A DNA stretch of 37,358 nucleotides from Candidatus Woesearchaeota archaeon (GTDB taxonomy: Archaea > Nanobdellota > Nanobdellia > Woesearchaeales > GW2011-AR4), in contig JAGVYA010000005.1 in assembly GCA_018303505.1 (NCBI GenBank), positions 1-37,358 of the forward strand. The letters are read 5' to 3'. Shown in pieces: positions 18,244 through 33,811 of this stretch (position 1 is its first letter; each line of letters begins with the position of its first letter). A program made the translations under genes and the position numbers. Below the pieces are notes generated by a model. It did no database searches and was not told the origin of the DNA. It worked only from the letters and a program-made list of their open reading frames with translations.

Positions 18244-18410
18244 TGCTCCCGCCGGGACAATCATGATAAAAGATATTTCTTTCACCATTTTGAACCCAGG
18301 TCTTCGGATCGAAAATCCGAAATGATTGGTTATCCCTAAAGAACAACCCCATATTGTGGATTTTCTTCAGACCGGAGTGTGCGAGTATGTGCTCTCTACA
18401 CCACGGGAGC
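18244..18410 (-). tRNA. tRNA-Glu (UUC) with two introns (D-loop and T-loop)
   Basis: The minus strand begins GCTCCCGTGGTGTAG and ends CCCGGCGGGAGC-A, which closes a 7-bp acceptor stem. Stem TCGGA, loop TTTTCGA and stem TCCGA give anticodon TTC (Glu). The two extra blocks are about 60 bases in the D-loop (window 18336-18395; placement is ambiguous by 3 bases because TAG occurs at both ends) and 31 bases in the T-loop (18258-18288), between TTCAAA and T. Removing them leaves a 76-base tRNA with normal D, anticodon and T arms. Both blocks fold into hairpins. CCA is not encoded. A decayed gene is the alternative, but every stem is intact. Confidence 0.82.
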
Positions 18411-19788: not shown

Positions 19789-19937
19789 TGGGCCCACGGA
19801 GATTTGAACTCCAGACCTCCGGCTGGCCTAGAGAATTCTTGGATTCTTTACTTTGATACCAAAAATCTCGTATAAGACTTGCGTGTTCAAAGATACTTTT
19901 TGAACTCGGCGCTCTAACCAGCCTGAGCTATGGGCCC
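19789..19937 (-). tRNA. Probable tRNA-Ile (UAU) with two introns (29/30 and 37/38)
   Basis: The minus strand begins GGGCCCATAGCTCAG and ends CTCCGTGGGCCC-A; acceptor stem, D-arm GCTC/GAGC and T-arm TGGAG-TTCAAAT-CTCCG are all normal. The anticodon arm is rebuilt only if two introns are removed: 28 bases at 19879-19906 (inside the 5' stem strand, after CCG) and 46 bases at 19825-19870 (canonical site). The result is CCGGT-CTTATAA-GCCGG, anticodon TAT (window 19872-19874), and a 75-base tRNA. The first intron contains GTTCAAA/TTTGAAC, flanked by GCG/CGC, like a bulge-helix-bulge motif. Amino acid identity rests on this model. Confidence 0.72.
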
Positions 19938-33704: not shown

Positions 33705-33811
33705 TGGGGCTGCGAGGATTCGAACCCCGGTCGGACCCATATCGGACAAGATTTGCGAACGCAAAAAGGTTGTCCCCAAGGGCCAATTCTACCAAGCTAT
33801 ACTACAGCCCC
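33705..33811 (-). tRNA. tRNA-Pro (probably GGG) with one intron
   Basis: The minus strand starts GGGGCTGTAGTATAG and ends CGCAGCCCC-A, closing a 7-bp acceptor stem. The T-arm is CGGGG-TTCGAAT-CCTCG. The anticodon arm is GGCCC-TTGGGG, then a 34-base intron (33740-33773), then T-GGGTC. The intron folds through GGACAA/TTGTCC and TTTGCG/CGCAAA. Mature length 73. The stem pairing favours anticodon GGG; TGG would need a weaker stem. Both are Pro. Confidence 0.85.

Follow-up and report, generated by a model that had tools for sequence, protein, structure and literature searches.

A tRNA-Glu(UUC) gene with three candidate bulge-helix-bulge introns in a Woesearchaeon and its single EndA gene

How many introns split the D-loop and T-loop of a tRNA-Glu(UUC) gene found on the minus strand of contig C65 of a Woesearchaeon, and which enzyme would remove them? 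The contig belongs to a 1.3-Mb metagenome-assembled genome (MAG) in 77 contigs, 88% complete (G000); the window is the whole 37,358-nt stretch analysed. The initial annotation had recognised a full set of tRNA-Glu(UUC) parts here without giving a strand, with one insert of 60 bases in the D-loop and one of 31 in the T-loop. All parts were found, and the T-loop figure was exact, corresponding to intron i3. Extra sequence does occur in the D-loop; it amounts to 61 nt and consists of two introns, i1 (19 nt) and i2 (42 nt), flanking the five nucleotides UCCGG. The gene thus has three introns instead of the two proposed, and its anticodon loop is uninterrupted, as had been stated. The DPANN-like character suggested for the genome also held: a protein encoded in the window had its best matches in named genomes among Candidatus Woesearchaeota MAGs (77-87% identity). 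We consider it highly probable that the locus is functional, that it is the single copy of tRNA-Glu(UUC), and that its transcript would be matured by removing three bulge-helix-bulge (BHB) introns (Table 1).

Intron positions and splice motifs

Splice junctions were fixed by comparison with relatives, not by folding. Blind enumeration of BHB pairs with ARAGORN scoring was abandoned, as it yielded numerous spurious tRNAs and failed to recover the correct three-intron structure. A pattern search for the tRNA-Glu anticodon arm found one copy per genome in 14 genomes, comprising G000, a further 12 from the genus, and G020, which belongs to another genus of the same family; a fifteenth match, in G043, was a chance match. 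The 5' part of the acceptor and D-arm, UCCGG, the block from CCAAUCAU to UUCRAA and the segment from UCCCGG through the acceptor were conserved over the 14 loci, and the three inserts came and went independently. i1 was present in three loci (G000, G009 and G019) and i3 in 11 (missing in G004, G009 and G019; 21-136 nt long in the other loci). i2 was missing only in G019 (L060), which retains the spliced D-loop UCCGGCCAAUCAU, and was present in the remaining 13. Removal of all the introns that a locus contains left a 74-nt tRNA-Glu(UUC) body in every case, differing by few substitutions. Intron presence and absence inside one genus therefore supplies before-and-after pairs for gain or loss. A second, intact tRNA-Glu(UUC), which the initial annotation had named as the observation that would speak against it, was searched for within the 88%-complete MAG of G000 and none was found.

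The T-loop introns of tRNA-Glu have grown to 127 nt in L065 (G018) and 136 nt in L066 (G001), and both keep a 4/4 central helix, UUCA/UGAA. Split genes in these two genomes, considered because of the long inserts, were ruled out, as the 3' exon is found 127-136 nt further downstream.

Every junction set by comparison carries a 3-nt bulge, a 4-bp helix and a second 3-nt bulge with an adjoining inner helix. For i1 the motif consists of bulge AG|A, helix GUGU/GCAC (4/4), bulge AC|U and a 3-bp inner helix GAG/CUC. For i2 it consists of bulge GG|U, helix GUCC/GGAU, bulge AA|C and an 8-bp inner helix CUGAAGAA/UUCUUUAG, with the central helix 3/4 in the full precursor and 4/4 once i1 is removed. For i3, bulge AA|A, helix UUCA/UGAU (3/4) and bulge UG|U are followed by a 10-bp inner helix, and the 5-bp T-stem serves as outer helix, giving an hBHBh' context. 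Shuffled introns equalled the observed motif at frequencies of 6e-4 (i1), 1.5e-5 (i2) and 5.5e-5 (i3). Compensatory changes occurred in the inner helices of all three introns, for i1 in G009 and G019. The central helix H of i3 covaries as well, A57-U being replaced by G57-C, in which exon position 57 G pairs with an intron C. Judged by the strict hBHBh' form, tRNA-Glu falls short: i1 and i2 have no outer helix and the i3 central helix is 3/4. A strict BHB at all junctions was dropped because of the missing outer helices of i1 and i2.

Standard tools did not see the gene. ARAGORN called no tRNA in the window, this locus included. Rfam cmscan at the gathering threshold left the locus unseen and found 19789-19937 as the sole tRNA in the window; with permissive filters it gave only chance matches at the tRNA-Glu locus. 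The fold of the precursor was far more stable than that of shuffled sequences (z = -5.8). When the three introns were removed, ARAGORN named the 74-nt body tRNA-Glu(ttc), a standard tRNA. Among 16 tRNA loci of G000, a partial census, ARAGORN recognised three without splicing (Gly, Val and His). Because standard finders overlook such genes, tRNA counts in DPANN MAGs, and completeness estimates based on them, may be too low.

Table 1. Features of the tRNA-Glu(UUC) gene and of other loci discussed (window positions unless a contig is given).
Feature	Position	Strand	Basis or remark
tRNA-Glu(UUC) precursor without leader and trailer	18244..18410	-	spliced body 74 nt plus discriminator A73 at 18244
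Exon 1, acceptor 5' strand through G15, GCUCCCGUGGUGUAG	18396..18410	-	comparison with relatives
Intron i1, 19 nt, position 15/16, AGAGCACAUACUCGCACAC	18377..18395	-	comparison with relatives and motif
Exon 2, 5-nt micro-exon UCCGG (U16-G19)	18372..18376	-	unchanged in 14/14 related loci
Intron i2, 42 nt, position 19/20	18330..18371	-	comparison with relatives and motif
Exon 3, 3' part of D-arm, anticodon arm (UUC), variable loop, T-stem 5' strand, UUCAAA	18289..18329	-	
Intron i3, 31 nt, T-loop position 59/60	18258..18288	-	comparison with relatives and motif
Exon 4, U60, 3' strands of T-stem and acceptor, discriminator A	18244..18257	-	
TATA-like box AAATTTAAAAA	18435..18445	-	25-35 nt upstream of tRNA-Glu
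tRNA-Ile(UAU)	19789-19937	-	introns: 28 nt at 29/30 (anticodon stem), 46 nt at 37/38
rtcB, tRNA-splicing ligase (L134)	G000:C64:9916-11259	-	30-nt insert with in-frame TGA

Rival readings and proposed maturation

The simplest rival, one 60-nt D-loop intron together with one T-loop intron, is very unlikely. The length of the insert nearly fits (61 nt) and a D-loop reading AGGGAUAACCAA is conceivable, but among 60-nt frames close to the junction none can form a BHB, the best having a 3/4 helix and an inner helix of 1 bp. Moreover, most relatives have i2 without i1, G019 has i1 without i2, and UCCGG is invariant. That standard tRNA finders overlook the locus would suit a decaying pseudogene with random insertions. 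We find this even less probable, since each exon base is paired or conserved, none of the 14 genomes yielded a further copy, and the motifs as well as the covariation have been maintained. The chance of an assembly artefact or chimera is almost negligible despite the 77 contigs of the MAG: the same architecture occurs in other genomes of the genus, which were assembled independently, and in G020, and D- and T-loop introns are also present in other families of the order. It is also possible, though we think it rather unlikely, that the precursor is genuine and is processed by an extra, unrecognised nuclease or EndA partner and not by a single alpha-type EndA alone. Against this stand the splice sites, which retain the 3-4-3 geometry of EndA, and the genus itself, in which no second PF01974 or PF02778 protein was found, apart from two MAGs with duplicates or with copies at a contig end.

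Several points weigh against a functional gene with three BHB introns. i1 and i2 have no outer helix and belong to the relaxed HBh' class, and the EndA of this genome is without the loop known to allow such substrates. In G000 the central helix H of i3 contains a U.U mismatch. i1 draws its support from three genomes, and part of the covariation of i2 reflects two sequence types only. The MAG is 88% complete, so an additional tRNA-Glu is possible. Finally, splicing of this tRNA is predicted from DNA sequence.

If three introns are removed as we propose, i1 (15/16) would leave first, joining G15 to U16 and completing the i2 helix GUCC/GGAU. i2 (19/20) would be excised after i1, and i3 (59/60) would be cut from the T-loop with the T-stem as outer helix. 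A single EndA would make the cuts and RtcB would join the exons into tRNA-Glu. Splicing is probably ordered, i1 before i2, because i1 splits the exon bases G15, U16, C17 and C17a that form the i2 central helix. Ordered intron removal has been described in other archaeal multi-intron tRNAs (PMC8450103). We infer transcription, cleavage, splicing order and aminoacylation of the tRNA. The TATA-like box upstream is found in identical or similar form at a comparable distance in several relatives. In four other relatives (L062, L066, L068 and L070) the 3' end of a tRNA lies just upstream of tRNA-Glu in its place, which suggests co-transcription with the upstream tRNA in those species.

Splicing endonuclease, ligase gene and other interrupted tRNAs

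One EndA gene was found in G000. It encodes 201 amino acids with N-terminal and catalytic domains (PF02778 and PF01974). Its size, both domains and its single locus fit the alpha-4 type, and we infer the alpha-4 assembly from the gene count. The survey took in 20 genomes from the genus and 99 from the order, and nearly every genome with a match had a single EndA. The exceptions were G012 and G069 with two, G071 with two pieces, and G002 with a contig-end duplicate of the N-terminal domain. We compared the segment that holds the insert of the S. tokodaii enzyme and the loop of ARMAN-2 (Tyr160/Lys161), these loops being termed CSL and ASL; the criterion was an inserted loop with a conserved Lys between the YG and LSL..EA(L)YL segments. 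None of the 45 aligned Woesearchaeal EndAs contained a CSL/ASL loop, and the segment was as short as in M. jannaschii. Classification of the endonuclease, proposed as a check in the initial annotation, thus gave a single alpha-type EndA without this loop. Relaxed specificity, which had been thought necessary, would be expected for i1 and i2; i3, by contrast, lies in an hBHBh' context with one mismatch, and the enzyme is without CSL/ASL. By textbook rules, an alpha-type EndA lacking the loop would cut relaxed HBh' motifs inefficiently.

Other tRNAs of G000 are interrupted too. The D-loop of tRNA-Asn (L014, G000:C43) is split by an intron of 21 nt at 15/16, where i1 sits in tRNA-Glu, and tRNA-Arg(CCU) (L010, G000:C4) has a 31-nt intron at 53/54. 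Both introns, like i1 and i2, are without an outer helix and are therefore HBh' (relaxed). The introns of these two tRNAs and of tRNA-Ile(UAU) share the motif geometry of tRNA-Glu, and ARAGORN names every spliced form. A UAU anticodon for isoleucine is rare in archaea. An interrupted tRNA resembling tRNA-Pro(GGG), with an insert in the anticodon loop, was seen at window positions 33705-33811, minus strand. Elsewhere in the order, in other families, D-loop introns of tRNA-Glu were found at 19/20, the i2 site, in G069 and at 20/20a in G052, G089 and G110. Inserts at the T-loop site were seen in G044, G089 and G172. Most intact tRNA-Glu matches in these families had no intron.

The gene for RtcB is present in G000 and contains a 30-nt BHB intron; the insert fits the motif exactly, with a 4/4 helix GGGG/CCCU and an inner helix of 10 bp. 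Splicing would create the junction GGGGAU|ACGG and the motif MPDGHWGYGFPIGG, which intronless relatives encode directly. An insert at the same site was found in five species of the genus (30, 30, 33, 31 and 31 nt) and was absent from this site in five others. Codon recoding was excluded as a general explanation because the insert lengths do not keep the frame. Judging from the gene, splicing of the RtcB mRNA would require the very ligase that it encodes. A few codons upstream, between MPDGH and WGYG, inserts with stops were observed in L171 (G006), L174/L180 (G016) and L178 (G011), and the G006 gene has a second insert downstream, near GGIGFDIN. The rtcB of G019 (L176/L179) is a single frame of 992 aa; it has a large insert in this region that keeps the frame and may be an intein.

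On the accepted view, diversified tRNA introns go together with an EndA that has an additional loop for gripping RNA, whereas this order has diversified D-loop, anticodon-stem and T-loop introns without that loop. We hold as evenly poised the proposal that noncanonical splicing in Woesearchaeales resembles that of Thermoproteales but uses a single alpha-type EndA able to cut HBh' motifs without CSL/ASL; either broad specificity can then be reached in another way, or the loop rule does not hold. As part of this proposal the same machinery must splice the RtcB mRNA in several species, so that the supply of ligase would depend on splicing capacity.

Comparison with known systems

In the literature searched, of partial coverage, we found no report of three-intron tRNAs or noncanonical BHB tRNA introns in Woesearchaeota, nor any of an rtcB intron in archaea. 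The nearest counterpart of the latter is the BHB intron in crenarchaeal cbf5 pre-mRNA (PMC2738675), likewise in a protein-coding gene. However, rtcB is another gene in another lineage, and in its case splicing yields the ligase used in splicing.

In the PDB, the EndA studied here matched NEQ205 best, the catalytic subunit of Nanoarchaeum equitans (4.5e-36). The N. equitans enzyme (NEQ205/NEQ261) cleaves noncanonical BHB motifs, as cited in PMC4090602. It is a heteromer and the tRNAs of that organism are split, whereas here no second subunit was found and the tRNA is cis-spliced. ARMAN-2 (Micrarchaeum), also of DPANN, has an epsilon-2 three-unit EndA with an ASL (Tyr160/Lys161); the 201-aa EndA has neither an ASL nor an equivalent lysine.

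CSL/ASL enzymes accompany diversified tRNA introns (PMC12397907). Thermoproteales such as Pyrobaculum and Thermofilum have up to three BHB introns per tRNA at noncanonical positions, and close-set introns leave in order (PMC3218864, PMC8450103). The tRNA-Glu gene resembles these multi-intron genes, its three introns (15/16, 19/20 and 59/60) all lying outside 37/38. Thermoproteales, however, are Crenarchaeota with an (alpha-beta)2 EndA, which carries the CSL in crenarchaea, whereas the Woesearchaeon has a single alpha-type EndA without such a loop. Three-intron tRNAs with noncanonical BHB introns are already known in Thermoproteales; the type of EndA is the surprise.
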